Below, one piece after another: positions 1 through 13,531 of a DNA stretch of 64,000 nt. Source of the stretch: Bradyrhizobium sp. AZCC 1693. GTDB taxonomy: Bacteria > Pseudomonadota > Alphaproteobacteria > Rhizobiales > Xanthobacteraceae. The stretch lies in assembly GCF_036924745.1 (NCBI RefSeq), contig NZ_JAZHSD010000001.1, positions 5,580,001-5,644,000 on the forward strand, read 5' to 3'. A model generated the notes under the pieces. It had not been told where the DNA came from. It worked only from the letters and a program-made list of their open reading frames with translations, and did no database searches. Position 1 is the stretch's first letter; each line of letters begins with the position of its first letter. A program made the translations under genes and the position numbers.

Positions 1-2
1 TT

Positions 3-515
3 TGGAGAGGGGATCTGACCGCGGGTGGCTTGGCCTCCGCGGGATCTGGACGAACTCCAGTCGAAGCTGCATCCGCGCTGGTTCAGGCTGCCAGGCCTGG
101 CCTTGTCGCTTTGGAGCGCATCGTCGCGCGTTCGGCTGGCGAGTCGGACAATATGTCCGGGCTTGGCGGCTTGATCGGTCTCGGGCCGGGCCTTACGCCG
201 TCCGGCGACGACCTGATCGGCGGTGCGCTGATTGCGTTGGCCGCACTTGATCACACCGAGCGTCGCGACGTGCTGTGGGGCCGTTGCCTTACGCTGATCG
301 CGCACACCAACGATATCAGCAGGATCCATCTGCAGGCCGCGGCGCTCGGCTACGGTGCGGCCGCGCTGCATGCCGCTATCCACGTAGTGATGAGTGGTCA
401 GACCGCACGACTTCACCACGCCCTCAAGGCGTTGACTGCGGTCGGTCACACATCCGGACTGGACGCATTTGCGGGCAGTCTCATCGTCCTGCGCCACGCC
501 ATTCGAAAGCAGTGA
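3..515 (+). CDS. AllH-like (DUF2877) subunit, 5'-truncated by window edge
   Basis: C-terminal ~170 residues of a DUF2877/AllH family protein; the frame is open to the left edge, so the start lies outside the window. The family hallmark GPGLTPSGDDL is present, followed by a hydrophobic helix and a C-terminal segment with AGSL. In E. coli, AllF, AllG and AllH (formerly FdrA, YlbE, YlbF) together form the oxamic transcarbamylase that converts oxalurate and phosphate to oxamate and carbamoyl phosphate. Here AllG- and AllF-like genes follow on the same strand, which supports the call. A strong intrinsic terminator lies 45 bp downstream, so this gene is probably the last of an upstream transcript, apart from the following allG/allF operon. 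Family assignment is firm; the substrate is inferred from neighbours. Confidence 0.82.
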   Translation, partial: WRGDLTAGGLASAGSGRTPVEAASALVQAARPGLVALERIVARSAGESDNMSGLGGLIGLGPGLTPSGDDLIGGALIALAALDHTERRDVLWGRCLTLIAHTNDISRIHLQAAALGYGAAALHAAIHVVMSGQTARLHHALKALTAVGHTSGLDAFAGSLIVLRHAIRKQ

Positions 516-559
516 CGCGAGCGTCGCGGTTTCCATCAAATTTCGAGTTCTCCCAGACT

Positions 560-587
560 GCTCCGAACAATGTTCGGAGCTTTTTTT
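560..587 (+). terminator. Rho-independent terminator after the AllH-like gene
   Basis: An 8-bp perfect GC-containing stem (560-567 with 573-580), a 5-nt loop CAATG, and a run of seven T at 581-587. It ends the upstream transcript before the next operon. Confidence 0.85.
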
Positions 588-660
588 GTGATCGATATTC
601 ATTCTGACCGAGCCCGCGACGCGATCGAGCACCGAAATTCCCTTTCAAGAAAATTCAGCC

Positions 661-689
661 TTGACTAAGTAAGTGTTTTCTTATTAGCT
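661..689 (+). promoter_or_regulatory. Possible promoter/operator of the first allG-allF operon
   Basis: A TTGACT hexamer at 661-666 and an AT-rich stretch to 689 lie between the terminator and the first gene of the next operon. An imperfect dyad, CTAAGTAAG with CTTATTAG (665-688), overlaps it. The -10 match is poor, so this is only a candidate. Confidence 0.3.
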
Positions 690-726
690 CGACGAAACGG
701 GAATGAACTTGTTGGGGCAGGAGACG

Positions 727-915
727 ATGACGGATCAGGAAAGGCCACAGTATCAGCTATTGCTGGCGCGCAAGGTCGAAGTCGCAAATGTCGGGCTGGA
801 GGGGTTCGTGAAGGACCTGCGCGACTGCGGCATCGACGTCGTTCATGTCGACTGGAAGCCGTCGGCGGGCGGAGATCCGCAGATGGCGGCCCTGCTTGCA
901 AAGCTTGGTATATGA
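727..915 (+). CDS. Small free-standing AllF/AllG-associated module (62 aa)
   Basis: A 62-residue protein without signal peptide or membrane segment. ATG at 727 is preferred: GGGG at 714-717 and GGAG at 720-723 precede it; an upstream ATG at 703 is possible. Residues 18-61 contain VANVGLEG, VVHVDWKP and AGGDP and end in a short hydrophobic helix. The same module, ungapped by eye, forms residues 15-58 of the second AllG-like protein encoded at 6486-7934 (VVSLG, LVRLQWRP, GSPE). From memory, similar NVG...VDWxPxAGG tails occur in some FdrA proteins, but neither FdrA-like protein here has one. Its stop overlaps the next start, so it is translationally coupled to the AllG-like gene. It is probably a detached subunit or domain of the transcarbamylase; its biochemical role is unknown to me. 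Confidence 0.72.
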   Translation: MTDQERPQYQLLLARKVEVANVGLEGFVKDLRDCGIDVVHVDWKPSAGGDPQMAALLAKLGI

Positions 916-2174
916 GGGCGCCGATGAAGCTGATTAAAGACGCAAACCAACAGGCGCTGGCTCGCATCCTCGAGGGTGAGCCGAGACTGATCGACATCGT
1001 CCCCGCAGGCCAGTTGATGAAGGGCCTGCGCGATCGAGTGATCCTTCACGCCGGCCCGCCGATCACCTGGGAGAAGATGTGCGGCCCCATGCGGGGTGCG
1101 GTGGCAGGCGCGATCGTCTTCGAGGAATGGGCGCCGGATCTCCGATCCGCGACGGAGCTCGCCGCCAGCGGCGGAATCCAATTTCACCCAAACCATCACT
1201 TCGGGGCGGTCGGTCCGATGACCGGCATGACGACGATGTCGATGCCGTTGTTCGTGGTCGAGAATGCGCGCTTCGCCAATCGCGCCTATTGCGCGATCAA
1301 CGAGGGGCTCGGCAAGGTCATGCGCTTCGGCGGCAACGACGCAAGCGTGCTGAAGCGGCTTGCCTGGTTGCGCGACGTCTTCGGGCCGGCTCTGGGCAAG
1401 GCGATCCGTGCCTCCGGCGGCGTCGACCTGAAATCGATCGTCGCGCGCGGGCTATCGATGGGCGACGAGCTGCATCAGCGCAATCTCGCCTGCTCGAGCA
1501 TTTTCCTCCGTGAGATCGCGCCCTGGATGGCGCGGACGTCGACCGACAATACGACTCTCGCCGAATGTTTGGCGTTCATCGGGCAGAACGATCAGTTCTT
1601 TCTGAACATCGCCATGGCGATGGGCAAGGCGATGACCGATCCCGCGAACGGCATTCGTGGTTCGACCATTGTCACGACGATGTGCCGCAATGGAACCGAC
1701 TTCGGCATCCGCGTCAGCGGGCTGGGCGAACAGTGGTTTACGGCTCCAGTCGAAATGCCGGAAGGCCTCTACTTTGCCGGCTATTCCGAGAAGGATGCCA
1801 ATCCGGATATGGGCGACTCCGCAATCGTCGAAACGATCGGGTTGGGTGGATTTGCGATGGCGGCGGCGCCGGCGGTTGCAGGCTTCGTGGGCGCCGGCGC
1901 ACCGTCCGAAGCTGGCAACTTCACCCGCTCGATGGGTGAAATCACCGTTGCGCAGAATCCGGAATGGACCATTGCCGCGCTAGACTTCGCAGGTGTGCCT
2001 ACCGGCATCGACATCCGCTTGGTCGTCGATTCCGGCGTGGTGCCCGTCATCAACACGGGCATCGCGCATCGCGAACCCGGCATCGGTCAGGTCGGGGCAG
2101 GTGTGGTCAAGGCGCCGTTGACTTGTTTCCAGCAAGCGGTGCGTGCCATCGCCAGCGATTTGGGGGTGTCATGA
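912..2174 (+). CDS. allG: AllG-like (DUF1116) oxamate carbamoyltransferase-type subunit, copy 1
   Basis: 420 residues, full length for the DUF1116/YlbE family. Diagnostic segments are LHAGPP (45-50), CGPMRGA (57-63), the FGAVGPM...MPLFVVEN stretch, MGDELHQRN, SGLGEQWF, NPDMGDSAI and a C-terminal INTGIAHRE. E. coli AllG is the partner of AllF and AllH in oxalurate transcarbamylation. The start at 912 overlaps the stop of the small upstream gene; ATG at 924, with GAGGG just before it, is an alternative. The 3' end overlaps the following FdrA-like gene by ATGA, showing tight translational coupling. This copy lacks the N-terminal extension found in the second copy at 6486. The family call is firm; the exact carbamoyl donor is inferred. 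Confidence 0.85.
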   Translation: MRAPMKLIKDANQQALARILEGEPRLIDIVPAGQLMKGLRDRVILHAGPPITWEKMCGPMRGAVAGAIVFEEWAPDLRSATELAASGGIQFHPNHHFGAVGPMTGMTTMSMPLFVVENARFANRAYCAINEGLGKVMRFGGNDASVLKRLAWLRDVFGPALGKAIRASGGVDLKSIVARGLSMGDELHQRNLACSSIFLREIAPWMARTSTDNTTLAECLAFIGQNDQFFLNIAMAMGKAMTDPANGIRGSTIVTTMCRNGTDFGIRVSGLGEQWFTAPVEMPEGLYFAGYSEKDANPDMGDSAIVETIGLGGFAMAAAPAVAGFVGAGAPSEAGNFTRSMGEITVAQNPEWTIAALDFAGVPTGIDIRLVVDSGVVPVINTGIAHREPGIGQVGAGVVKAPLTCFQQAVRAIASDLGVS

Positions 2175-3682
2175 AAGTCGTTGTCGTCAACGAGATCCGC
2201 AAGGGATTCTATCTCGATTCGGTCGCGCTGATGCGGCTGTCCCGTGAAGTGGCCGCGTCTCCCGGCGTCATCGAGGCGGCGTTGATGATGGGGACGCCAT
2301 CCAACGCAGCGATCATGCGCAACGCGGGCTTGCTGGATGAGCGCGTCGCCATAAAGGGCAATGATCTCGTGATCGCGGTCAAGGCGGAAACCGAGCCTGC
2401 CGCACGCGATGCCCTCGACGGCGCCATCAAGTCGCTCGACAAGCCGAAGAGCCAGGGCGAAGCGCAGGCCGCATGGCGACCGCATTCCATCGCCGCGGCG
2501 GTGAAGCTCAGGCCCGAGACCAACCTTGCGCTGATCTCCGTCCCTGGCGATTTCGCGGCCGCCGAAGCCAGGAAAGCGCTCAATCGCGGCCTGCATGTCC
2601 TGATGTTCAGCGACAACGTGTCCCTCGAGGACGAATTGTCGCTCAAGCAGCAGGCGCGCGCAGCCGGCCTGCTGATGATGGGCCCCGATTGCGGAACGGC
2701 CGTTATTGGCGGAGCGCCGCTGGCCTTCGCCAACAAACTCCGGCGCGGCAGGATCGGAATTATCGGCGCGTCGGGTACCGGAACGCAGGAGGTCTCATGC
2801 CTGATTTCGGAGGCCGGCGAAGGGATCTCACACGCCATTGGGGTCGGTGGCCGTGATTTGAAGAAGGATATCGGCGGGATCACGACGTTGATGGCGATCG
2901 ATGCGTTCGATTCCGATCCGGACACGAGCCATGTGGTGCTGATCTCGAAGCCGCCGCATCCCGATGTCGCCAAGTCTGTCCTCGCGCGGATCGGGAAAAG
3001 CAGGAAGTCGTTCACCGTCTGCTTTATCGGAGCTTCGGAGGTCGAGCTTCCGCCGAATGCCCGCTTTTCGCCAACGCTCAAAGGCGCCGCCGAATTGGCG
3101 CTGGGCGGTAAGCGGATCGGGGCAGACTTCGACGCGAACGCCGTCGCCTCGCGGCTTCCGCGAAGGGGCGGTCAAGGCAGGATCGAGGGATTATTCGCCG
3201 GTGGAACGCTTTGCGCCGAAGCGCAGGTGATCCTCGCGGCCACCGGTCGCAAGGTGGCGTCGAACGCCGCAATTCCCGGCGTACCCAAGCTCGACAGCGA
3301 GCCGAACGGAGGCCGGGACCGGCTGATTGACCTCGGCGACGACGAGTATACGCGTGGGCGACCGCATCCGATGATCGACCCTTCCGTGCGTGATGAAGCA
3401 TTGCGTGTCGCGCTCAAAAATGCCGATCTCTCGGTAATCCTGCTCGACCTGGTGCTTGGTTATGGCGCCCATGCGGATCCCGCCGAGCATCTGACAAGGA
3501 TTGTCGCCGAACGCGGGCAGTATGCGCCGGCGCTGATCGCGTCCGTCGTGGGCACAGAGGCGGATCCGCAGGTGCGCTCGGTGCAGGTCAGGAAGCTGGA
3601 GCAAGCCGGAATCGTCGTCGCGCCATCGAATGCTCAGGCGTGCGAACTGGCGGTTGCCATCGTCAACAATACCGGGAGGTGA
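2171..3682 (+). CDS. allF: AllF/FdrA-like carbamoyltransferase subunit, copy 1
   Basis: 503 residues of the FdrA family, which has the two-domain fold of the succinyl-CoA synthetase alpha subunit. Visible landmarks are YLDSVALMRLS near the N terminus, ALISVPG (120-126), MGPDCGTA (170-177), the glycine loop GASGTGTQE (199-207), FAGGTLCAEAQ, and GRPHPMIDPS followed by LDLVLGYGAHADP. FdrA was renamed AllF after assignment to the oxamic transcarbamylase of anaerobic allantoin degradation. The ATG at 2171 lies in an ATGA overlap with the AllG-like gene and has a G-rich ribosome-binding site, so it is chosen over longer alternatives. Carbamate kinase follows after 4 bp. No VDWxP tail is present at the C terminus; that module is encoded separately at 727-915. 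Confidence 0.86.
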   Translation: MKVVVVNEIRKGFYLDSVALMRLSREVAASPGVIEAALMMGTPSNAAIMRNAGLLDERVAIKGNDLVIAVKAETEPAARDALDGAIKSLDKPKSQGEAQAAWRPHSIAAAVKLRPETNLALISVPGDFAAAEARKALNRGLHVLMFSDNVSLEDELSLKQQARAAGLLMMGPDCGTAVIGGAPLAFANKLRRGRIGIIGASGTGTQEVSCLISEAGEGISHAIGVGGRDLKKDIGGITTLMAIDAFDSDPDTSHVVLISKPPHPDVAKSVLARIGKSRKSFTVCFIGASEVELPPNARFSPTLKGAAELALGGKRIGADFDANAVASRLPRRGGQGRIEGLFAGGTLCAEAQVILAATGRKVASNAAIPGVPKLDSEPNGGRDRLIDLGDDEYTRGRPHPMIDPSVRDEALRVALKNADLSVILLDLVLGYGAHADPAEHLTRIVAERGQYAPALIASVVGTEADPQVRSVQVRKLEQAGIVVAPSNAQACELAVAIVNNTGR

Positions 3683-3686
3683 GGAA

Positions 3687-4646
3687 ATGCGTACGCTCAA
3701 TGATGTGCCGCGTCGCCTTGTGGTCGCGATTGGTGGCAATGCGGTTCATCCCGAAGACATCCGGGGCACTTCCCAGGAGCAGAAGTCCGTCGCGCAGAAA
3801 ACCGCGGAAGCGCTGTTGCCGCTTGCGCAACTCGATAACGAGCTGGTCATCACGCACGGCAACGGTCCGGTTGTCGGCAAGATCATGATGCGCCAGATGT
3901 TGACGATGAGTCGCATCCCGCCGATGGACATGGACATCTGCGTGGCGCACAGTCAGGGCGGCATCGGCTATCTGCTGATGCAGGCGATCGAGAATGCCTT
4001 GCGCGAACAAGGCAACCAGAGGCATGTGGCAAGTCTGCTGACCCAGGTTGAGGTCGACAAGGACGACCCAGCCTTCAAGAATCCCACGAAGTTCGTCGGG
4101 CCCTTCTTCGCCGAAGAAGAGGCCAAGAAGATCAGTGCCGAACTCAACTGGCCGATGCGAGAGGATTCGGGGCGAGGCTGGCGTCACGTTGTGCCCTCGC
4201 CAAAGCCCAAGCACGTCTGCGATATCTCGCTGGTCGATGCATTGGTCAAGCGGGGAACAATCGTCATTGCCGGAGGCGGAGGTGGCGTTCCCGTTGTTCG
4301 CGACGCCAAGGGCGTACGCACCGGCGTGCCGGCGGTGATCGACAAGGACTTGACGTCGGCCCATATCGCGAATGTCCTTGGCATTGAGGAACTGCTGATC
4401 CTGACGGCCGTGCCGCGCGTCGCGGTGAATTTCGGCAAGCCGAACAAGAAGGAGCTAGATCAGGTCAGCCTCGACGAGATCAAGGCCTATCACCGTGAAG
4501 GACACTTTCCTCCAGGAAGCATGGGACCCAAGGTCGATGCTGCCATCCGGTTTCTCGAGGGGGGCGGAAAGCGCGCGATCATCAGTCACCTCGATTGCGC
4601 AATGGCGGCGCTGCGAGGCGAGACAGGGACGCACGTGGTTCAATAG
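3687..4646 (+). CDS. arcC: Carbamate kinase
   Basis: 319 residues, the usual size of carbamate kinases (ArcC/AllK). It catalyses carbamoyl phosphate + ADP to carbamate + ATP in the cytoplasm. Motifs are VAIGGNAV near the N terminus, THGNGP, the CAHSQGGIGYL segment, KRGTIVIAGGGGGVPV and the nucleotide-site region VIDKDLTSA. A strong GGGAGGTGAGG precedes ATG 3687, only 4 bp after the FdrA-like stop, so it is in the same operon. In this setting it would recover ATP from carbamoyl phosphate made by the AllF/G/H-type enzyme, as AllK does in E. coli. No arginine deiminase genes are nearby, which argues against an arginine role. Confidence 0.9.
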   Translation: MRTLNDVPRRLVVAIGGNAVHPEDIRGTSQEQKSVAQKTAEALLPLAQLDNELVITHGNGPVVGKIMMRQMLTMSRIPPMDMDICVAHSQGGIGYLLMQAIENALREQGNQRHVASLLTQVEVDKDDPAFKNPTKFVGPFFAEEEAKKISAELNWPMREDSGRGWRHVVPSPKPKHVCDISLVDALVKRGTIVIAGGGGGVPVVRDAKGVRTGVPAVIDKDLTSAHIANVLGIEELLILTAVPRVAVNFGKPNKKELDQVSLDEIKAYHREGHFPPGSMGPKVDAAIRFLEGGGKRAIISHLDCAMAALRGETGTHVVQ

Positions 4647-4887
4647 TCGGTCCAATTGACGCAGCTGCGGGCATCGGCTTGCGCCAATCTTTGTTCAGTC
4701 GGATTCGAGCGTTGGGCAAGATGGCGGGCCGAACCTGAAGCGCCGCCGTGGCGCCTGAACTCACTGAGTTGGAGCAGTCGAGGCGCATGACCGGCGTCTC
4801 ATCTTTGATCAGATCATCGCTGCTGTTGGCCGGAGCTCAAACATAAAAACGAGCAGGCCTGAGGGAATTCAAGGGAACGACAAGGCA

Positions 4888-6489
4888 ATGGCTATCCAGT
4901 CGAGCGTAAAAGCGAACCTGTACAAGGATTCTGTATCGTTGATGCGGATCTCGCAAGTCACGGTCGCGCGGAGCGGCGTGCAGAGAGTTACGTTGTTGAT
5001 GGGAACACGTAGCAACAAGGAGTTCCTGCAGCAGGCTGGACTGATGACTCCAGCGCTCGAAAGCGCCCAGCCCGGCGACATCATGATCGTGGTGGCAGAC
5101 GATTCGCCCGACAAGCTCGAAGCTGCGGAGCGAGAAATTCACTCCCTGATTGTCGGCGAAGAATCGAAGGAGGGCCCGACAGAAGCGGCTGCAGAAGCAC
5201 CGCCGCGATCGATCTCCGACGGCGTCGCGGTTGCCGATCATGCCAACCTCGCGTTGATCTCGGTGCCGGGGCCCTATGCGGCAGCCGAAGCCTTGAAAGC
5301 CCTGCGTCAGGGCCTGAACGTGCTGTTGTTCAGCGACAACGTGCCGATCGAACAGGAGCAGGCCATCAAGCGGGTTGCCGCGCAGAAGGGACTGCTGGTC
5401 ATGGGCCCGGATTGCGGCACAGCGATCATCAACGGCGTCCCGCTTGGATTTGCGAACGTCGTTCGGCATGGCGTCATCGGGCTTGTCGGAGCGTCGGGAA
5501 CGGGGCTGCAGGAGGTGATGTGCCAGATCCACCGCCATGGCCAGGGCATATCGCAGGCGATCGGTACCGGCAGCCATGACGTCCATAGTCAGGTCGGCGG
5601 CATCACCATGTTGCAGGGCCTGGAATTGCTTGCCGCGGATGAGGGTACGAAGGTCATCGCCATCGTTTCCAAACCTCCCGCGCCGGAGGTGCAGCAGCTC
5701 GTGATCGATCGGGCGGGGGCGATCGACAAGCCGGTCGTGATCTGCTTCCTGGGCGGCGAATCCGTAGCCTCCACTGGCAATGTTCATCGCACTTGGTCGC
5801 TGGAGGAGACGGCGAGGCGTGCTGTCTCTTTCGTGGGAGCGAACAAGCCCGGAAGTGACGAGAAGGCCGCTGAGGAGCTGGCGACGAGGATTTGCGCGTC
5901 GCTGGCGCCTTCGCAGCGCTATCTCCGCGGTCTCTATTCCGGTGGAACGTTCTGCTCGGAGGCTCAGACCATTTGGCAGGCGGCCGGCATTCGTGCCCGG
6001 TCGAATGGGCCCCTCATCGATGCCGACAGGCTGGCCGACCCGGAAGACAGTTACGGGCATACGGCGGTCGACCTGGGTAGCGATGAATTCACGGTGGGGC
6101 GTCCGCATCCGATGATCGACTACGGCGTGCGGATCGACCGGCTCCTGAAGGAGGCGGAGGATCCAACCGTCGCCAGCATCGTGTTGGACGTCGTGCTGGG
6201 TTACGGCAGCCATCCGAATCCGGCGGAAATCCTGGCTCCGGCCATCCGCCGGGCGAAGGCCGTTGCGAAAGCAAAGGGGCGAGAGCTTCCCGTCATCTGC
6301 TTCGTGTGCGGCACGGATGAGGACCCGCAGCCCTTCGAGGCGCAGAAAGCCATATTGACGGATGCCGGCGCTGAACTCGTCGGCAGCAGCACGGGCGCGG
6401 CCCTTGCCGCCCGGGCCATCGCGAGCCGCATGGCGGCGGGTGAAAGCGCTGCTGACCGTCGCGTGATGCAAGGTGGAGAACGACGATGA
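4888..6489 (+). CDS. AllF/FdrA-like carbamoyltransferase subunit, copy 2
   Basis: 533 residues, clearly paralogous to the protein encoded at 2171-3682: LYKDSVSLMRIS, ALISVPGPYAAAEALKALR, MGPDCGTA, GASGTGLQEV, YSGGTFCSEAQ and GRPHPMIDYG align in order. It is about 30 residues longer, with a Glu/Ala-rich linker near residues 85-110 and an extended C terminus. AAGGGA lies 11 nt before ATG 4888. A 241-bp gap after the carbamate kinase gene suggests an independent promoter. The gene overlaps the next one by ATGA, so the second AllF/AllG pair is translated together. The divergence of the two pairs suggests different carbamoyl substrates rather than a recent duplication; which substrate cannot be read from sequence. 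Confidence 0.84.
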   Translation: MAIQSSVKANLYKDSVSLMRISQVTVARSGVQRVTLLMGTRSNKEFLQQAGLMTPALESAQPGDIMIVVADDSPDKLEAAEREIHSLIVGEESKEGPTEAAAEAPPRSISDGVAVADHANLALISVPGPYAAAEALKALRQGLNVLLFSDNVPIEQEQAIKRVAAQKGLLVMGPDCGTAIINGVPLGFANVVRHGVIGLVGASGTGLQEVMCQIHRHGQGISQAIGTGSHDVHSQVGGITMLQGLELLAADEGTKVIAIVSKPPAPEVQQLVIDRAGAIDKPVVICFLGGESVASTGNVHRTWSLEETARRAVSFVGANKPGSDEKAAEELATRICASLAPSQRYLRGLYSGGTFCSEAQTIWQAAGIRARSNGPLIDADRLADPEDSYGHTAVDLGSDEFTVGRPHPMIDYGVRIDRLLKEAEDPTVASIVLDVVLGYGSHPNPAEILAPAIRRAKAVAKAKGRELPVICFVCGTDEDPQPFEAQKAILTDAGAELVGSSTGAALAARAIASRMAAGESAADRRVMQGGERR

Positions 6490-7934
6490 ACGCAGTCCCC
6501 GCCGCTCTGCGGAATAGAAAGACCTCCGTCGTCAGCCTCGGCGCCTCCGATCTCGATCGAGGTGTCAAGAGCAGCGGTGCCCCGCTGGTACGCCTGCAGT
6601 GGCGGCCGGTCGGCGACGGAAGCCCGGAGGTCGCCTGGAATCTCGCGCAACTGGTCGGCGATGCGAACGATGCGGACTGCCTCGGGTCGCGGATCGATCG
6701 CGCCAATGCGGAAGTGCTTGAGCGCGTCCTGACCGCGCAGCCGGTATGGGTCGACGTCGCGGCGCACGCATCCGACGTCTGGCCGGACATGGGCCGGACC
6801 CTGCTGCATGCCGGCCCGCCGATCGCCTGGAAGGATATGTGCGGCCCCATGAAGGGGGCAGTCGTCGGCGCAATTCTCTACGAGAAATGGGCGACGAGCC
6901 CGGTGGAGGCGGAGCAACTTGCCGTGGGCGGCGGCATTCGCTTTGCGCCTTGCCATGAATTCGGCGCGGTCGGGCCGATGACCGGGATCATCTCACCCTC
7001 GATGCCCCTCTTTGTGGTGATGAACAAAACCGCGGGGAATCGCGCTTATGCGCCGATGATGGAGTCCGGCGGCGCCAGGACGTTGCGGTTCGGCGCGTTC
7101 GCGCCCGAAGTGCTCGAAGGTCTTAGGCTGATCGAGAATGTCTTGGCTCCGTGCCTGAAAGCGGCTGTCGCCGGCATCGACGGCGGGCTGCCCCTGAAGC
7201 CGCTGATGTCGCAGTCGCTGCATATGGGCGACGACGTCCACAACCGCAACACGGCCGCGACCCTGCTGCTGTATCGCGCGGTCACGGAATCGCTCCTCAA
7301 ATCGTCGATCTCGCGCGACATCGTTCACGAGACGCTGAGGACGATCGGGGCGGACGATATGTTCTTCCTGAGCCTGTCCATGGCGGCGTGCAAGGCGACG
7401 ATGGATGCCGCGCATGGCGTACCGTTCAGCAGCATCGTCACCGCGATGGCGCGAAACGGCGTGAATGTGGGCATCAGGGTAAGCGGACTGAACGGGCAAT
7501 GGTTTGTCGGTCCCGCCGACGTCCCTGTCGGCCTGTTCCTGCCCGGATTCAGCGAGGCGGACGCTAATCCCGACATCGGCGACAGCGCGATTACGGAGAC
7601 GGCCGGACTCGGCGCGTTTGCGATGGCTGCCGCTCCCGCGATGGTCCAGTTTGTCGGCGGTACGCCGCAGGACGCCCTGCGCTATTCGCGCGAGATGGCG
7701 CACATCGCGATCGGCCGCAATCCCGGCTTCACGCTGCCGATGCTCGATTTCATCGGTGCTCCGGTCGGCATCGACATCCGCAAGGTCGTGGACGAAGGCA
7801 TGCGGCCGGTCATCAATACCGCAACGGCCCACAAGGAGCCGGGAATGGGAATCATCGGCGCGGGCGTCGTGCAGGCTCCGATGAAGTGTTTTGTCGATGC
7901 CGTGGGAGCGCTCGCGACGATGGCATCTGGATGA
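6486..7934 (+). CDS. AllG-like (DUF1116) subunit, copy 2, with N-terminal fused module
   Basis: 482 residues. Residues 1-60 are an N-terminal extension whose core (15-58, with LVRLQWRP and GSPEV) matches the free-standing 62-aa protein encoded at 727-915. The rest is a full DUF1116 domain with LLHAGPP, CGPMKGA, FGAVGPM, MGDDVHNRN, SGLNGQWF, NPDIGDSAI and INTATAHKE. It is paralogous to the copy at 912-2174 and partners the FdrA-like gene just upstream through an ATGA overlap. The binding-protein gene of an ABC importer begins 134 bp downstream on the same strand. No second AllH-like gene is visible, so this pair may share the one at the left edge or work without it. Confidence 0.84.
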   Translation: MNAVPAALRNRKTSVVSLGASDLDRGVKSSGAPLVRLQWRPVGDGSPEVAWNLAQLVGDANDADCLGSRIDRANAEVLERVLTAQPVWVDVAAHASDVWPDMGRTLLHAGPPIAWKDMCGPMKGAVVGAILYEKWATSPVEAEQLAVGGGIRFAPCHEFGAVGPMTGIISPSMPLFVVMNKTAGNRAYAPMMESGGARTLRFGAFAPEVLEGLRLIENVLAPCLKAAVAGIDGGLPLKPLMSQSLHMGDDVHNRNTAATLLLYRAVTESLLKSSISRDIVHETLRTIGADDMFFLSLSMAACKATMDAAHGVPFSSIVTAMARNGVNVGIRVSGLNGQWFVGPADVPVGLFLPGFSEADANPDIGDSAITETAGLGAFAMAAAPAMVQFVGGTPQDALRYSREMAHIAIGRNPGFTLPMLDFIGAPVGIDIRKVVDEGMRPVINTATAHKEPGMGIIGAGVVQAPMKCFVDAVGALATMASG

Positions 7935-8068
7935 TGCTGACGCTTCGCTCCGTCGCGGCGGCGCGAAGGGGCGACGTGGGCGGGATCGCGGAGATGCGAC
8001 GTCCCGACCATCAAGCTGCAGGCACAAGAAAAGAGCCGCAACACAAGAAGCAAACAGGAGGAAACAAC

Positions 8069-9058
8069 ATGGATGATACCCGTCGTGCATTTCTGAAAAC
8101 CGGTCTGCTCTCGGTTGCCTGGATCGGCTCATCGAGCGGATTGTCCTTTGCCGACGACGCGGCAAAGCCGGTCCGTATCGGCATTCTTATTCCGGGATCG
8201 AGAGCCGACCATGGCTGGATGGAGTCGGCCTACAACGGCATGAAGGCGGCCGAGCAACGCCACGGCAAGAAGGTTGCGATCACGTCCATCGAGAACGTGA
8301 AGTTCGCCGACATGGAGCAGGCGCTCGTGACGCTCGCCACCAAGAACGACATGGTCATTGGCGCCGCGGGGCAGACCCAGGCGTCGGTTCTGAAGGTTGC
8401 CAAGCGATTTCCGAAGGTGAAGTTCGCCATCGTCGGGCCCACGGGGCAGCCGACGGACAACGTCGCGCAGTACGACGTGCTGCAGGCCCAGATCGGCTTC
8501 ATCGCCGGCGCGGTCGCCGCCATGATGTCGAAGAGCGGCGCGGTGAGTTACGTCGGCGGTCTCGAAATTCCGGCGATTGTCAATACCGGAACGGAATTCG
8601 CGAACGGCGCCAAATACGTCAAGCCCGATACCAAATGCTTCGTGACCTATACCGGCGATTTTGACGACGTCGCCAAGGCGAAGGAAGCAACCCTTGCCTC
8701 GATCGCGCAAGGGGCCGACGTCCACTACAACATTCTCAACCTCGGCGTGCGCGGAATGGAGCAGGCGGCGCGCGAGAAGGGCACCACGATGATCGGAAGC
8801 TATACCAACTACTGCTCCGACAACAATCCGCTCTACATCGCCTACACGGTCAGCGGCATCGGGTTCATGGTCGAGTATGCCATCGATCAGGCCGTCGCCG
8901 GGACGTGGCACCCGGAATACAAGCAGTTCGGCCTCGCCATGGGTCCGCGTTCGGCCGACATTGAGATCTGTACCGGCGCGACGCCGGAGATCCAGGCGAA
9001 GATCAAGGAGCTCAAGGACGACTTGCTGTCGAACAAGATCAAGGTAAAGGTGGGTTGA
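8069..9058 (+). CDS. BMP/PnrA-type ABC transporter substrate-binding protein with Tat-like signal
   Basis: 329 residues of the basic membrane protein (BMP, Med/PnrA) family, periplasmic binding proteins for nucleosides and related compounds. The N terminus reads TRRAFLKTG followed by a hydrophobic stretch and Ala-Asp, a good Tat-type signal, so it is probably exported folded. Family features are the early PVRIGILIPG, DHGWMESAYNGM, a GAAGQTQAS segment and GGLEIPA. AGGAGG at 8057-8062 is an excellent ribosome-binding site for ATG 8069. The ATPase and two permease genes follow without gaps. Placed behind carbamoyltransferase genes, it probably captures a purine, pyrimidine or ureide compound; specificity is inferred only. 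Confidence 0.88.
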   Translation: MDDTRRAFLKTGLLSVAWIGSSSGLSFADDAAKPVRIGILIPGSRADHGWMESAYNGMKAAEQRHGKKVAITSIENVKFADMEQALVTLATKNDMVIGAAGQTQASVLKVAKRFPKVKFAIVGPTGQPTDNVAQYDVLQAQIGFIAGAVAAMMSKSGAVSYVGGLEIPAIVNTGTEFANGAKYVKPDTKCFVTYTGDFDDVAKAKEATLASIAQGADVHYNILNLGVRGMEQAAREKGTTMIGSYTNYCSDNNPLYIAYTVSGIGFMVEYAIDQAVAGTWHPEYKQFGLAMGPRSADIEICTGATPEIQAKIKELKDDLLSNKIKVKVG

Positions 9059-9060
9059 CC

Positions 9061-10629
9061 GTGGCTCTTCTCGAACTGTCTGGTTTGACCAAGCGGTTCG
9101 GCGCTTTCACCGCGCTCGACGACATCTCGCTGGAAGTCGAGCGCGGCGAGGTGCACTGCCTCCTTGGCGAGAACGGCGCCGGCAAATCGACATTGTGCAA
9201 CCTGGTTTTCGGGGTGCACCGGCCGGATGCCGGTGCGATGATGCTGGGCGGGCATTCGTTTCAGCCCCGCGGGCCGGCGGAAGCGCTCCAGCGCGGCATC
9301 GTGATGGTACACCAGCATTTCAGCCTGGTGCCCAACATGAGCGTGGCCGAAAACCTGATGCTTGGGCGTGCCGATGCGGTGCTGAAGCCGCAAGACATCG
9401 TCGTTCGCATGGAGCAACTCGCCGCGGAATACGGGCTCGAGATCGATCCGCAGGCGCTGATCGAGGATCTTTCGGTCGGCGAGCGGCAGCGCGTCGAGAT
9501 CATCAAATGCCTGCTCGGCGATCCGCAACTGCTCGTGCTCGACGAGCCGACCGCGGTCTTGCAGCCGGACGAGATCGATGCGTTGCTGGCGATCTGTCGC
9601 CAGGTGGCGCTTCGCGGAAAGTCCGTGATCCTGGTGACCCACAAGCTGGGCGAGATCAATCGCGTCGCCGACCGCACCACGGTGCTTCGGCAAGGCCGGA
9701 TTATCGAAACGGTGACGATGGCCGGTGCCGACATTCGATCGCTCGTGCGCTCCATGGTTGGCCGCGATGTTCAGTCGGCCGGTTCGGTACTCGCCGCGGC
9801 GGTCGATATCGAAGGCAGGGTGCCGGCAAAGCCCGGATCAGGGCCGACGGGAGTGTTGCCTGGTCCGCCCTCGCCGAACGAAGCGCTGCTTCAGATATCG
9901 AACCTCGTCTATCGCGACGCGCAGGGCGTGGCGAGGCTTGACGGCTTGAGCGTCACGGTCGGTGCCGGAGAGATTGTCGGGATCGCCGGTGTCGAGGGCA
10001 ACGGCCAGACTGAACTTGGCCTTATCCTCGCCGGCCTTGCCACACCGAGTGCGGGCTCCATCGATGTCGGCGGCACATCGCTGAGTGGTTGCACACCGCA
10101 GCAGATCACGGATGCGGGGGTCGGCATCGTTCCCGAAGACCGCCATGCAGTGGCCTGCATCAAGGAACTGTCGGTGTCCGAGAACCTGTTTCTCGGTTCG
10201 ATCGGAAAATTCAGCCGTTTCGGGCTTCTCGACAAGCCGGCGCGTCGCAGGGCGGCCGAGACCATGATGCGCGAGTTCGATGTCCGCGCGAGCAGCGCGG
10301 ACGTGTCGATGGCGAGTCTATCCGGAGGAAATCAGCAGAAAGCGGTGCTCGCGCGCGAGCTCTCGCTTGATCCGCTGGTGTTTCTGCTGGCAGCCCAGCC
10401 GACGCGGGGGTTGGACGTCGGCGCGATCGAGGCTGTCTACAATCGCATTCGTGCCGCTCGCGACGACGGTCTCGGGGTGCTTTTGATCTCCAGCGAGCTT
10501 GAGGAGTTGATGGCTGTGTCGGACCGGATCGCGGTGATCTACCGCGGAAAACTGGTTGGCGAACTGGCGGCCGGGTCGTTCAGTCGCGAGGCGATCGGCG
10601 CGATGATGTCGGGTCACGCACATGTCTAG
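9061..10629 (+). CDS. Nucleoside/BMP-type ABC transporter ATPase with two nucleotide-binding domains
   Basis: 522 residues with two fused ATPase domains, as in RbsA/NupB-type proteins. Domain 1 has Walker A GENGAGKST (36-44), signature LSVGERQRVEI and Walker B LLVLDEPTAVL. Domain 2 is degenerate at Walker A (GVEGNGQTEL), as usual for this class, with signature SGGNQQKAVLAREL and LAAQPTRGLDVG. A Pro/Gly-rich linker of about 40 residues joins them. GTG 9061 is chosen; TTG 9055 overlapping the upstream stop is possible. The 3' end overlaps the first permease gene by 8 bp. It energises the importer with the BMP protein and the two permeases. Confidence 0.9.
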   Translation: MALLELSGLTKRFGAFTALDDISLEVERGEVHCLLGENGAGKSTLCNLVFGVHRPDAGAMMLGGHSFQPRGPAEALQRGIVMVHQHFSLVPNMSVAENLMLGRADAVLKPQDIVVRMEQLAAEYGLEIDPQALIEDLSVGERQRVEIIKCLLGDPQLLVLDEPTAVLQPDEIDALLAICRQVALRGKSVILVTHKLGEINRVADRTTVLRQGRIIETVTMAGADIRSLVRSMVGRDVQSAGSVLAAAVDIEGRVPAKPGSGPTGVLPGPPSPNEALLQISNLVYRDAQGVARLDGLSVTVGAGEIVGIAGVEGNGQTELGLILAGLATPSAGSIDVGGTSLSGCTPQQITDAGVGIVPEDRHAVACIKELSVSENLFLGSIGKFSRFGLLDKPARRRAAETMMREFDVRASSADVSMASLSGGNQQKAVLARELSLDPLVFLLAAQPTRGLDVGAIEAVYNRIRAARDDGLGVLLISSELEELMAVSDRIAVIYRGKLVGELAAGSFSREAIGAMMSGHAHV

Positions 10630-11731
10630 ATTGGCCATGGTTATGAAACATCCGAAGCTTGCCCAGGTCGCGCAGGGCGCCAAACTCGATCTCATGCCGC
10701 TGCAGGTGCTCGTTCCGGTGGTGTCGACCGCTATCGCGCTCGGAATCGGCCTGCTCATCATCGCTTCCACGGGAGCGTCGGTCGTCGAAGCCGTTGAAGC
10801 GTTCTGGGACGGCATGGCGGGAAGCGATTTCAATATCGGCGCCTCACTCAATCGCGCGATCAGCCTCGGGCTGGTCGGCCTCGGTTTCATCTTCGCCAGC
10901 CGCGCCAATCTGACCAATGTGGGAGGCGAGGGGCAGATCGCGATGGGCGGCATGTTCGCGACTGCAGCGGCCCTGCATGGCGCCGGCGGCCTGCCGTTTG
11001 GGCTGGCGTTTATCGTGCCGCTCGCGGTGGGAACCGCCGCCGGGGCCCTTTGGGGCGCCTTGGCGGGCTTTCTCAAGGCGGCGCGCGGCACCAACGAGGT
11101 CATCAGCACATTGCTGTTGAGCTTCATTGCGCTGCCGTTGGTGTACTGGTCCGTCGAATCCTTTCCTTTGTTGCGCAAGCCGATCAGCGATGTGTCGTCG
11201 CTGCCGGAATCGCCGGAGATTCCGGATTCAACCAAACTGCCGCAGCTTTTCCCGGACAGCGGTTCTCCCCTTCATATCGGATTGCTGATTGCGGCGATCG
11301 CGGTCGTGGTCGTGTGGCTGGTGCTCAAGCACAGCACGCTCGGCCTGCGGTTGCGTGCCGTTGGCTTGAATGCGACGGCCTCTCGCCGGGCTGGCATGCG
11401 GACCAGCTTCTACGTGATCCTGGCCATGACAGTGTCTGGCGGCCTTGGCGGTCTCGGCGGGGCGATCATGATTCTTGGCCAGCAGTTCTATCTGACGAGC
11501 GATTTTTCGTCCGGTTACGGATTTGACGGCCTGGTGGTCGGTCTGCTGTCGCGAGGTTCAGCGGTCGGCGTCGTGATCGGTGCGCTGCTGTTCGGATTCC
11601 TGCGATCGGGATCGATCAACATGGAGATATCGGCGCATGTCCCGTCCGCTGTCGTCCTGATCTGTCAGGGCCTGATCGTCATCATCATTGCAGGCTCCGC
11701 GATCCTCACCAACCGGAAGGTGACCCGATGA
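10622..11731 (+). CDS. ABC transporter permease 1 (BMP/nucleoside type)
   Basis: 369-residue inner-membrane permease of the BPD_transp_2 (YufP/NupP) class. About eight to ten hydrophobic segments are visible, starting near residue 25. The family core ANLTNVGGEGQIAMGG and the later GTNEVISTLLLSFIALPLV and GYGFDGLVVGLL are typical. Residues ~175-210 form a hydrophilic loop rich in Pro, Ser and Asp. It overlaps the ATPase gene upstream and the second permease gene downstream (ATGA), so the four transporter genes are one unit. Confidence 0.88.
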   Translation: MSRLAMVMKHPKLAQVAQGAKLDLMPLQVLVPVVSTAIALGIGLLIIASTGASVVEAVEAFWDGMAGSDFNIGASLNRAISLGLVGLGFIFASRANLTNVGGEGQIAMGGMFATAAALHGAGGLPFGLAFIVPLAVGTAAGALWGALAGFLKAARGTNEVISTLLLSFIALPLVYWSVESFPLLRKPISDVSSLPESPEIPDSTKLPQLFPDSGSPLHIGLLIAAIAVVVVWLVLKHSTLGLRLRAVGLNATASRRAGMRTSFYVILAMTVSGGLGGLGGAIMILGQQFYLTSDFSSGYGFDGLVVGLLSRGSAVGVVIGALLFGFLRSGSINMEISAHVPSAVVLICQGLIVIIIAGSAILTNRKVTR

Positions 11732-12651
11732 TCGACGAACAAATGGCTGTGTTTATCGGCTCCGGACTGCGCCTTGCGGTTCCGATCATCTTCGCCGCGA
11801 CCGGCGAAATGCTGAGCGAACGGGCCGGCGTGCTCAATCTCAGCCTCGACGGCATGATGCTGATGTCAGCCTTCGCGGCGGCGCTGGCATCGTGGGCGAC
11901 CGGCTCGCCGCTCGCCGGTGTTGCGGCCGGCGTAGTGGTCGCGACATCCCTTGCCGCGGTTCAGGCTGTGTTAAGCGTAACGTTGCGCGCAAATCAACTG
12001 GTGGTGGGAATCGGGTTCAATATCCTGGCGCTGGGGACCACCACGTTCCTCTATCGCGAGATCTTTGGGCCGTTGTCGCGCGATCCGATTCCCGGCTTTG
12101 CGCAGCTCAATCCCCCGTGGCTTGCCGCCATCCCGGTAATCGGGCCGGCGTTGTCGAACCAGACGGGGCTTGCCTATGTCAGCATCCTGATGGTCATCGT
12201 GACATGGCTGCTCCTGACGTACACGTCCTTTGGATTGGCGGTGCGGGCGGTCGGCGAGGATCCGCGCGCCGCGGATAAGGCAGGAATCAGCGTGGCCAGG
12301 ACGCGCTATCTCGGCGTGCTTTACGCCGGGATCCTGGCGGGCCTGGGTGGAGCGTTCATGTCTGTCGCGGACAGCAATACGTTCACCGAGAACATGACCA
12401 AGGGAGCAGGCTATCTCGCGATTACGGCCGTGATCTTTGGCGGCTGGAACCCCTGGTACACATTGGCGGCGTGCCTCCTGTTCGGCTTCGCGACCGCCCT
12501 GCAATTCCTGGTGCCAGCACTGCAACTTGATGTGCCGGTGGCGCTCCTGTTGTTGCTGCCTTACTTGCTGGCGCTGATCGCCATCGCAGGCTTCGTCGGA
12601 AAGAGCAGACAGCCCGCGGCTTTGACCATTCCGTTCGAGCGCGGCGGTTGA
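11728..12651 (+). CDS. ABC transporter permease 2 (BMP/nucleoside type)
   Basis: 307-residue inner-membrane permease of the YufQ/NupQ class. The N-terminal FAATGEMLSERAGVLNLSLDGMML is the hallmark of the second permease in BMP-type importers. Further features are ANQLVVGIGFNILALG, the cytoplasmic AVGEDPRAADKAGI loop, GLGGAFMSV and a series of hydrophobic helices up to residue ~290. It completes the importer with the binding protein, ATPase and permease 1. The next gene, a cysteine amidohydrolase, begins 46 bp downstream. Confidence 0.88.
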   Translation: MIDEQMAVFIGSGLRLAVPIIFAATGEMLSERAGVLNLSLDGMMLMSAFAAALASWATGSPLAGVAAGVVVATSLAAVQAVLSVTLRANQLVVGIGFNILALGTTTFLYREIFGPLSRDPIPGFAQLNPPWLAAIPVIGPALSNQTGLAYVSILMVIVTWLLLTYTSFGLAVRAVGEDPRAADKAGISVARTRYLGVLYAGILAGLGGAFMSVADSNTFTENMTKGAGYLAITAVIFGGWNPWYTLAACLLFGFATALQFLVPALQLDVPVALLLLLPYLLALIAIAGFVGKSRQPAALTIPFERGG

Positions 12652-12697
12652 TCCGCATATGGACGATAAGAAAGCATGTGCAAGGGAGGAAAGTCCG

Positions 12698-13531
12698 ATG
12701 ACCAGTTCCACTGCTGCAATGGCCGTAGCGTCAACCGCGCCAATCTCATCCAACCCTCTTGGATCTGCTCCAGGCTACAGATGGCTGGTTGACGACAACA
12801 ACGTCAACATGGCGTTGGCGTCGCCGCCGCCGATCGCTGTCACGATCAACGCTCAGCCTCAGACCGTGACACTGGATTTGCATCGCACCGTTCTCATCGT
12901 TGTGGACATGCAGAACGATTTCTGTGCGAAGGGCGGATGGGTCGACCATCTGGGCGTCGATCACACGCCGGATCGAGCTCCGATCGAGCCGCTGCAGAAG
13001 CTTCTGCCCGTATTGAGGACTAATGGCGTCCACGTCATCTGGCTGAATTGGGGTAATCGGCCGGATCTCAAGAACATGCCGCCCAATCAGCTTCATTTGT
13101 ACAAGCCAAAGGGCGTCGGGATCGGTCTAGGCGAACCCCTGCCTGGCAGTGGCGCACGCGTGCTGCAGAAAGACAGTTGGGCCGCCGCTGTGGTCGATGA
13201 ACTGAAACAGGAGCCGGAAGACATTCACGTCGACAAATGCCGGATCAGCGGTTTCTGGGATACGCCGCTGGACAGTATTCTGCGCAACTTGGGAACGAAA
13301 GCGATCCTGTTTGCCGGCGTCAACACCGATCAATGCGTGCTGCATTCGCTGACGGACGCCAATTTCCTTGGCTACGGCTGTCTTCTGGTCGAAGACTGCT
13401 GTGCAACGACGTCGCCGGATTACTGCGTTGAGGCGACGCTCTTCAACGTCAAGAAGTGTTTCGGCTTCGTCACGCACTCGTTGCACGTGATCGATGCGAT
13501 TCGACAGCAGGTGCAACAGTCCGGAACATAG
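12698..13531 (+). CDS. Isochorismatase-fold cysteine hydrolase, RutB-like amidohydrolase
   Basis: 277 residues. After a ~60-residue N-terminal extension comes a cysteine hydrolase domain with triad elements in VVDMQNDF (Asp), DKCRISGF (Lys) and VNTDQC (Cys). GFWDTPLDSILRNLG and the ATLFNVKKCFGFV tail resemble RutB, which hydrolyses ureidoacrylate in pyrimidine degradation; biuret hydrolase has the same fold. GGGAGG at 12684-12689 supports ATG 12698; an upstream ATG at 12659 would add 13 residues. It is probably cotranscribed with the importer and would cut an amide or carbamoyl bond in the imported compound. The fold is certain, the substrate is not. Confidence 0.85.
   Translation: MTSSTAAMAVASTAPISSNPLGSAPGYRWLVDDNNVNMALASPPPIAVTINAQPQTVTLDLHRTVLIVVDMQNDFCAKGGWVDHLGVDHTPDRAPIEPLQKLLPVLRTNGVHVIWLNWGNRPDLKNMPPNQLHLYKPKGVGIGLGEPLPGSGARVLQKDSWAAAVVDELKQEPEDIHVDKCRISGFWDTPLDSILRNLGTKAILFAGVNTDQCVLHSLTDANFLGYGCLLVEDCCATTSPDYCVEATLFNVKKCFGFVTHSLHVIDAIRQQVQQSGT

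Follow-up and report, generated by a model that had tools for sequence, protein, structure and literature searches.

Two separate lineages of AllF/AllG carbamoyltransferase subunits in one conserved Bradyrhizobium island with a possible role in ureide catabolism

This study deals with a gene island at the beginning of a 64,000-nucleotide stretch of DNA from Bradyrhizobium sp. AZCC 1693, referred to here as the window (positions 5580001-5644000 of a 7.6-Mb single-contig genome), which carries two pairs of AllF- and AllG-type carbamoyltransferase subunits. The genes follow one another on the + strand in the order AllH (C-terminal part), AllG1, AllF1, carbamate kinase, AllF2, AllG2, BMP-type binding protein, ATP-binding cassette (ABC) ATPase, two permeases and isochorismatase-fold hydrolase. 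The original prediction, made from the letters of the window, had placed the two pairs, an AllH-like gene, a carbamate kinase, an importer and a hydrolase on one strand and had called the importer a complete BMP-type ABC system. All of them were found on the + strand at the places given, and the importer consists of Bmp, a two-domain ATPase and two permeases. The features are as follows, in window coordinates:

1..515, + strand: AllH (DUF2877), C-terminal part; PF11392 76.6 bits, cut-off 25
560..580, + strand: terminator-like hairpin between AllH and AllG1, 9-bp stem with T-rich tail; weak
912..2174, + strand: AllG1 (DUF1116), carbamoyltransferase subunit of pair 1; PF06545 309 bits (cut-off 27); 51% identical to E. 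coli AllG
2171..3682, + strand: AllF1 (FdrA type), subunit of pair 1; PRK06091/FdrA 480 bits, cut-off 433
3687..4646, + strand: carbamate kinase; TIGR00746 369.5 bits, above the equivalog cut-off of 358.25 (catabolic carbamate kinase)
4888..6489, + strand: AllF2 (FdrA type), subunit of pair 2; PRK06091/FdrA 496 bits, cut-off 433
6486..7934, + strand: AllG2 (DUF1116), long type of 482 aa, subunit of pair 2; PF06545 276 bits (cut-off 27)
8069..9058, + strand: BMP-family substrate-binding protein; PF02608 132 bits; best solved match 6pi5, "Atrazine periplasmic binding protein"
9055..10629, + strand: ABC transporter ATPase with two domains; PF00005, two stretches
10622..11731, + strand: ABC transporter permease 1; PF02653 (BPD_transp_2) 126 bits
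11728..12651, + strand: ABC transporter permease 2; PF02653 (BPD_transp_2) 144 bits
12698..13531, + strand: isochorismatase-fold cysteine hydrolase with RutB-like motif; PF00857 128 bits

The window keeps the last 170 codons of AllH, the longest open reading frame (ORF) of which opens 433 bases upstream (genome position 5579568; L003:17568-18515, in the fetched upstream stretch L003). The start of AllF1 overlaps the stop of AllG1, and AllF2/AllG2 and the importer genes likewise overlap by a few bases; the gap from AllH to AllG1 measures about 400 bases and that from the kinase to AllF2 241 bases. For pair 1, AllF, AllG and AllH are all present as in the AllFGH oxamic transcarbamylase set. The whole genome contains two AllG genes, both in this island, and a single AllH, which also lies here, and pairs 1 and 2 may therefore share it. 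A sigma-54 promoter pattern had no match in L003 (0.5 expected) and four in the window (1.9 expected), a number reached in 10 of 100 shuffles, so that no such promoter is proposed.

In L003, the complete AllH is preceded by the genes of a Liv-type importer, with a PF13458 binding protein, a PF02653 permease and a permease fused to two ABC domains, and by those of a PuuE-like polysaccharide deacetylase, of an AtzC-like amidohydrolase (PRK05985; 6nbo is the best solved match, with 305 bits), a TetR regulator and an enzyme of the gamma-glutamyltranspeptidase (GGT) family; the deacetylase, amidohydrolase and GGT-family genes lie about 5-10 kb upstream of the window. The best solved match of the GGT-family enzyme is 5hft (labelled gamma-glutamyltranspeptidase, its two chains scoring 287.5 and 263.8 bits), which we take to be HpxW of Klebsiella, an oxamate amidohydrolase. 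The order GGT, TetR, amidohydrolase is kept in all nine Bradyrhizobium upstream stretches fetched, and the deacetylase is labelled in eight of them. Further upstream (L003:3810-7606) lie arylmalonate-decarboxylase/EutA-like, GntR, allantoin-racemase-like (best solved match 5lfd) and dihydropyrimidinase genes; the racemase, dihydropyrimidinase and decarboxylase-like genes are labelled in none of the nine related stretches.

From AllG1 to the hydrolase, the gene order is intact on 17 of 17 distinct Bradyrhizobium contigs carrying both pairs, namely the 14 of 14 Bradyrhizobium matches of the collection scan, G388, G490 and the window, with duplicate contigs removed. This order is far from chance, and the neighbourhood comparison bears out the earlier expectation that the gene set is conserved together in relatives. 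One of these contigs (L009) begins downstream of AllH, and in Bradyrhizobium tropiciagri (L004:17757-18586) the hydrolase reads as two overlapping ORFs, owing to a frameshift or an assembly error. Since, of 117 genomes sampled within the genus, only 12 have AllG, nine of them with two AllG genes, the island is accessory; in the wider samples, AllG was present in 37/385 genomes of the class, 33/397 of the order and 16/398 of the phylum. Two parts can be distinguished: module A, which runs from just upstream of the window through the kinase, and module B, which comprises AllF2-AllG2, the BMP importer and the hydrolase. Module A occurs in G394 and G755 (L095, L102, L170, L171) as AllH-AllG1-AllF1-kinase plus the upstream block, and neither the BMP protein nor the hydrolase was found within about 27 kb downstream of it, so the modules are separable. 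Adjacent AllF genes were seen, among 113 mapped loci that include some contigs counted twice, only in the Bradyrhizobium loci and on one Xanthobacteraceae contig (L015). For a genome to have two AllFG sets is not in itself uncommon, as E. coli K-12 has both allFG and yahFG.

Phylogenetic trees were constructed from a large dataset (61 AllF and 95 AllG proteins) and a small one (35 representatives each). Pair 1 groups with E. coli AllFG, with a support of 78 for AllF, which is weak, and 95 for AllG in the large trees, and of 95 and 92, respectively, in the small trees. Pair 2 and one outside relative (L070) fall elsewhere, next to a lineage that carries isochorismatase-fold hydrolases; for AllF this placement is supported by 90 in the large and 70 in the small tree, and for AllG it is unresolved in the large tree and supported by 91 in the small one. 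An origin of the pairs by local duplication, with pairs 1 and 2 as sisters, was rejected by the approximately unbiased (AU) test (p 1.5e-66 for AllG and 6e-6 for AllF), as was a position of pair 2 within the E. coli AllFG lineage (p 0.0035 for AllG and 0.0163 for AllF), the tested groups having been picked after earlier trees. The pairs, which the original prediction had described as divergent, thus belong to separate lineages and are 40% (AllF) and 49% (AllG) identical to each other. Neither pair has lost any column with a conservation of 95% or more across the rows compared, 82 of 82 being kept in AllG (51 rows) and 75 of 75 in AllF (50 rows). Fourteen further columns, eight in AllG and six in AllF, set E. 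coli and pair 1 apart from all others, e.g. HQRN vs HNRN in AllG; they follow the tree and are therefore not independent proof of differing substrates. In size, AllG1 (about 420 aa) resembles E. coli AllG (419 aa), and AllG2 is near YahG (472 aa) and the plasmid AllG (474 aa).

We lean slightly towards reading the island as a two-module catabolic island for ureides (N-acylureas), which would probably use scraps of oxidised purines as a nitrogen source; what it acts on, the common use of AllH and the sequence of reactions are what we infer from the gene contexts. In module A, the Liv-type importer would take in a cyclic or open ureide, which the AtzC-like amidohydrolase and the PuuE-like deacetylase would trim and open at the ring, e.g. 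parabanate to oxalurate. Pair 1 would cleave oxalurate to oxamate and carbamoyl phosphate, the kinase would obtain ATP, CO2 and ammonia from the latter, and oxamate would be hydrolysed by the HpxW-like GGT enzyme to oxalate and ammonia. Module B would act in the same way on another imported ureide, supplying the same kinase and using the same single AllH. The earlier suggestion of two carbamoyl substrates or steps is plausible.

Among the substrates considered for pair 1, oxalurate, cleaved to oxamate and carbamoyl phosphate, is the most likely one on comparative grounds and is favoured over the hydantoin- or barbiturate-like compounds originally put forward. E. coli AllFGH is the oxamic transcarbamylase (OXTCase), as an excerpt of PMC11326118 states. 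Within the fetched stretch, a GGT gene occurs in 7 of 19 pair-1-clade loci outside Bradyrhizobium vs 1 of 33 other AllFG loci (Fisher p 0.002, not corrected for kinship), and in L015 it sits between AllH and AllG1. An AtzC-like amidohydrolase is found nearby in 6 and an AllC-like gene in 4 of the 19 outside loci. On a Sphingomonas plasmid, counterparts of the amidohydrolase (56%) and the deacetylase (54%) flank uraH of urate breakdown. From uric acid and singlet oxygen, parabanic acid is formed and hydrolysed to oxaluric acid (PMC5703782, excerpt), and HpxW converts oxamate to oxalate and ammonium (PMC5270733, excerpt). The simplest chain would thus run from parabanate via oxalurate and oxamate to oxalate, with ATP gained from carbamoyl phosphate, the ring-opening steps being the presumed part.

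The context of pair 2 is formed by its importer and hydrolase. The BMP binding protein is 60% identical to one in Rhizobium beside an orthologous hydrolase, and the importer and orthologous hydrolase (66-67%) occur together on plasmids of Rhizobium, Variovorax and Paraburkholderia, where the fetched stretches contain no AllFG; their neighbours are an amidase together with a GGT or, in Paraburkholderia, AtzE/HpxZ genes labelled "oxalurate catabolism". The label RutB-like, as used in the original prediction, is apt as a resemblance, since the alignment keeps the Asp/Lys/Cys triad and the RutB stretch KxRxSGFxxTPLDSxLR and is RutB-like around the Lys; an identity with RutB did not hold, the score being 151.4 bits against the equivalog cut-off of 377.95 (TIGR03614). 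The enzyme also falls under the BiuH cut-off (143 vs 370 bits). In BiuH, Lys145 and Gln215 bind the substrate biuret (PMC5806882 and PMC7948467, excerpts); the alignment places an Ile and a gap at these positions, and BiuH/TrtA was rejected as an identity. Because the hydrolase is RutB-like without the biuret-binding residues and its orthologues lie beside Hpx-type amidases, module B probably handles a carboxylate-bearing ureide, which elsewhere would be finished by these amidases. The substrate of pair 2 would most likely be a second N-acylurea.

In the sister lineage of pair 2, a TrtA/BiuH-like hydrolase is present in 11 of 15 loci vs 1 of 37 others (AllG-only loci left out), and 8 of the 15 carry an allophanate hydrolase (three) or a stand-alone allophanate hydrolase C-terminal domain (five), the latter matching PF21986 in 5/5 scanned (110-144 bits). 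As these genes accompany AllFG, a biuret or triuret substrate is plausible in the sister lineage and less so in the window. One set, consisting of TrtA/BiuH-like hydrolase, AllH, AllF, AllG, kinase, PF21986 domain and CodB-like permease, was observed in L128:5807-13985, L150, L111 and L131 (CodB not labelled in L131) and is a candidate for a phosphorolytic triuret/biuret pathway. L112:6697-7761 encodes an isochorismatase-fold hydrolase fused to an N-terminal domain that matches the allophanate hydrolase C-terminus. Kin of AllG of any lineage occur in 193 of 72,556 plasmid records, 96 of these from Escherichia.

Several observations weigh against the two-module reading. The GGT beside the Rhizobium BMP importer is just 33% identical to that of Bradyrhizobium, no GGT was found in the eight E. 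coli-lineage loci, and 12 of the 19 outside pair-1 loci show none in fetched stretches of unequal length. The upstream deacetylase is only putatively PuuE-like, with 121.8-124.9 bits far under the TIGR03212 cut-off of 424.6. The hairpin in the AllH-AllG1 gap suggests separate transcripts for AllH and AllG1, although it is weak evidence because the region holds 9 terminator-like sites vs a shuffle mean of 11.2 and thus no excess of them. Finally, the outside relative nearest to pair 2, L070, has AllH and a GGT beside it, so that oxalurate would fit pair 2 as well.

This last point leads to the alternative that both pairs act on oxalurate, either as isozymes of differing affinity or within one mixed AllF1-AllG1-AllF2-AllG2-AllH complex in which pair 2 raises flux. 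The single AllH of the genome and the retention of every strongly conserved residue in both pairs agree with it, as does the neighbourhood of L070; however, the low identity between the pairs, the rejection of both the sister grouping and the placement of pair 2 with E. coli AllFG, the 14 lineage-splitting columns, and the importer and hydrolase that follow pair 2 in all 17 Bradyrhizobium contigs (not in L070; L015 is cut) speak against it, and we consider it unlikely. A comparably low probability is given to a cleavage of biuret- or triuret-type N-carbamoylureas by pair 2, e.g. triuret + Pi to biuret + carbamoyl phosphate. Such a function would fit the nearness of pair 2 to the lineage with TrtA/BiuH-like hydrolases and allophanate hydrolase domains, an allFGHK set next to triuret/biuret genes and a BMP importer (PMC12625717, excerpt), and an allophanate hydrolase (809 bits) elsewhere in the genome. 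Set against this, the window hydrolase has no counterparts of the biuret-binding residues of BiuH, no allophanate hydrolase was found in the locus, the trees join pair 2 to that lineage with uneven support, and even there the hydrolases score below the BiuH cut-off (272-285 vs 370 bits in 5/5 scanned).

An E. coli-like allantoin pathway is very improbable. It would accord with the kinship of pair 1 to E. coli AllFG, the racemase-like and dihydropyrimidinase genes upstream in strain AZCC 1693, and the AllC-like genes of the pair-1 clade, but these two upstream genes are labelled in none of the nine related stretches, no ORF of the 36-kb stretch has AllC, AllD or AllE as its best reference, and the true PuuE allantoinase is distant, at 2.84 Mb (TIGR03212 530.7 bits). 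Three Ldh_2 genes (AllD superfamily) are present in the genome, far from the island; with no AllC, AllD or AllE in the stretch, allantoin was set aside as the direct substrate. The original prediction had reported no allantoinase, allantoicase or ureidoglycolate dehydrogenase gene in the window. The apparent lack of ring-opening genes results for the most part from where the window begins, as the deacetylase, amidohydrolase and GGT lie upstream; its conclusion that the substrate may not be allantoin stands in so far as allantoin is not the obvious direct one, given the remote PuuE and the lack of AllC, AllD or AllE best-reference ORFs.

The island, read as two modules, can be compared with known systems. 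With the E. coli AllFGH-AllK operon (PMC11326118, excerpt) it has in common the subunits, the carbamate kinase, the pair 1 lineage and the strongly conserved residues; it differs in having two pairs per AllH, no AllCDE nearby, Liv and BMP importers, an HpxW-like enzyme perhaps able to use oxamate, and a soil host. E. coli K-12 yahEFG-yahI-yahJ, annotated without function, combines AllH, AllF, AllG, kinase and amidohydrolase as in module A, but YahFG form a separate lineage and the stretch has no GGT or Liv/BMP importer. These uncharacterised genes (yahE-yahJ, L149:7926-14508) represent a third AllFG lineage. As described in part of PMC12625717, nitrifiers have allFGHK beside trtA/biuH/atzF and bmpA-nupABC, so that AllFGHK, hydrolases of the isochorismatase fold and a BMP importer lie close together there as here, whereas Bradyrhizobium has two pairs, its hydrolase is RutB-like instead of BiuH/TrtA-like, and the locus contains no allophanate hydrolase. 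The Hpx oxalurate genes (HpxW, HpxY, HpxZ) share the GGT-family enzyme, and orthologues of the BMP importer and hydrolase lie beside AtzE/HpxZ in Paraburkholderia; amidase-type genes take the place of AllFG. A region with RutB-like, FdrA, DUF1116, kinase and CodB genes is mentioned for avian E. coli in an excerpt of PMC12928451. Searches of the open-licence PubMed Central literature brought up no paper dealing with a double AllFG locus, with AllFGH together with HpxW or with AllG next to atzC, and among the papers seen, E. coli AllFGH (2024) was the sole AllFG-family enzyme with a demonstrated substrate.

Other AllG loci were observed in the course of the analysis. On three atzC plasmids (NZ_KP289281, NZ_CP014575 and NZ_CP094492; L173:12001-14488, L174:9001-11782 and L175:9001-10565), atzC lies behind a truncated AllG remnant that is 56-74% identical to the queries, with a carbamate kinase between the two in 2/3. 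The third-position GC of the L174 remnant and kinase and of the L175 atzC is 0.34-0.37, under that of the other listed ORFs. This position behind the remnant and kinase, together with the low third-position GC, suggests that atzC may have been recruited along with a piece of an AllFGHK-amidohydrolase operon. In 34 fetched loci (e.g. L073, L079 and L147), a few of them cut by contig ends, AllG stands without AllF or AllH in the fetched stretch; in L147 it is accompanied by a BMP importer, a dihydropyrimidinase and an arylmalonate-decarboxylase-like gene. A 315-aa ORF of L060 gave no family match.

A wider proposal is tentative and, taken as a whole, possible rather than probable. Pair 2 would be a carbamoyltransferase for a new substrate other than oxalurate, AllFG pairs would be catalytic units that can replace one another in docking on a common AllH and kinase, and the family would serve a general, ATP-conserving cleavage of N-acylureas. 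The sister lineage, common on plasmids, would represent a phosphorolytic triuret/biuret pathway composed of TrtA-like hydrolase, stand-alone allophanate hydrolase C-terminal domain, AllFGH and kinase, and atzC of atrazine degraders would stem from an AllFGHK-amidohydrolase operon.

Two anciently separate members of one family are thus found in a single conserved accessory island with separable modules, and since both occur together, differences in substrate can be tested within one strain. The island points to an aerobic pathway in which the oxamate nitrogen would be used as well, links the AllFG family with scraps of oxidised purines, and may hint at the origin of atzC.

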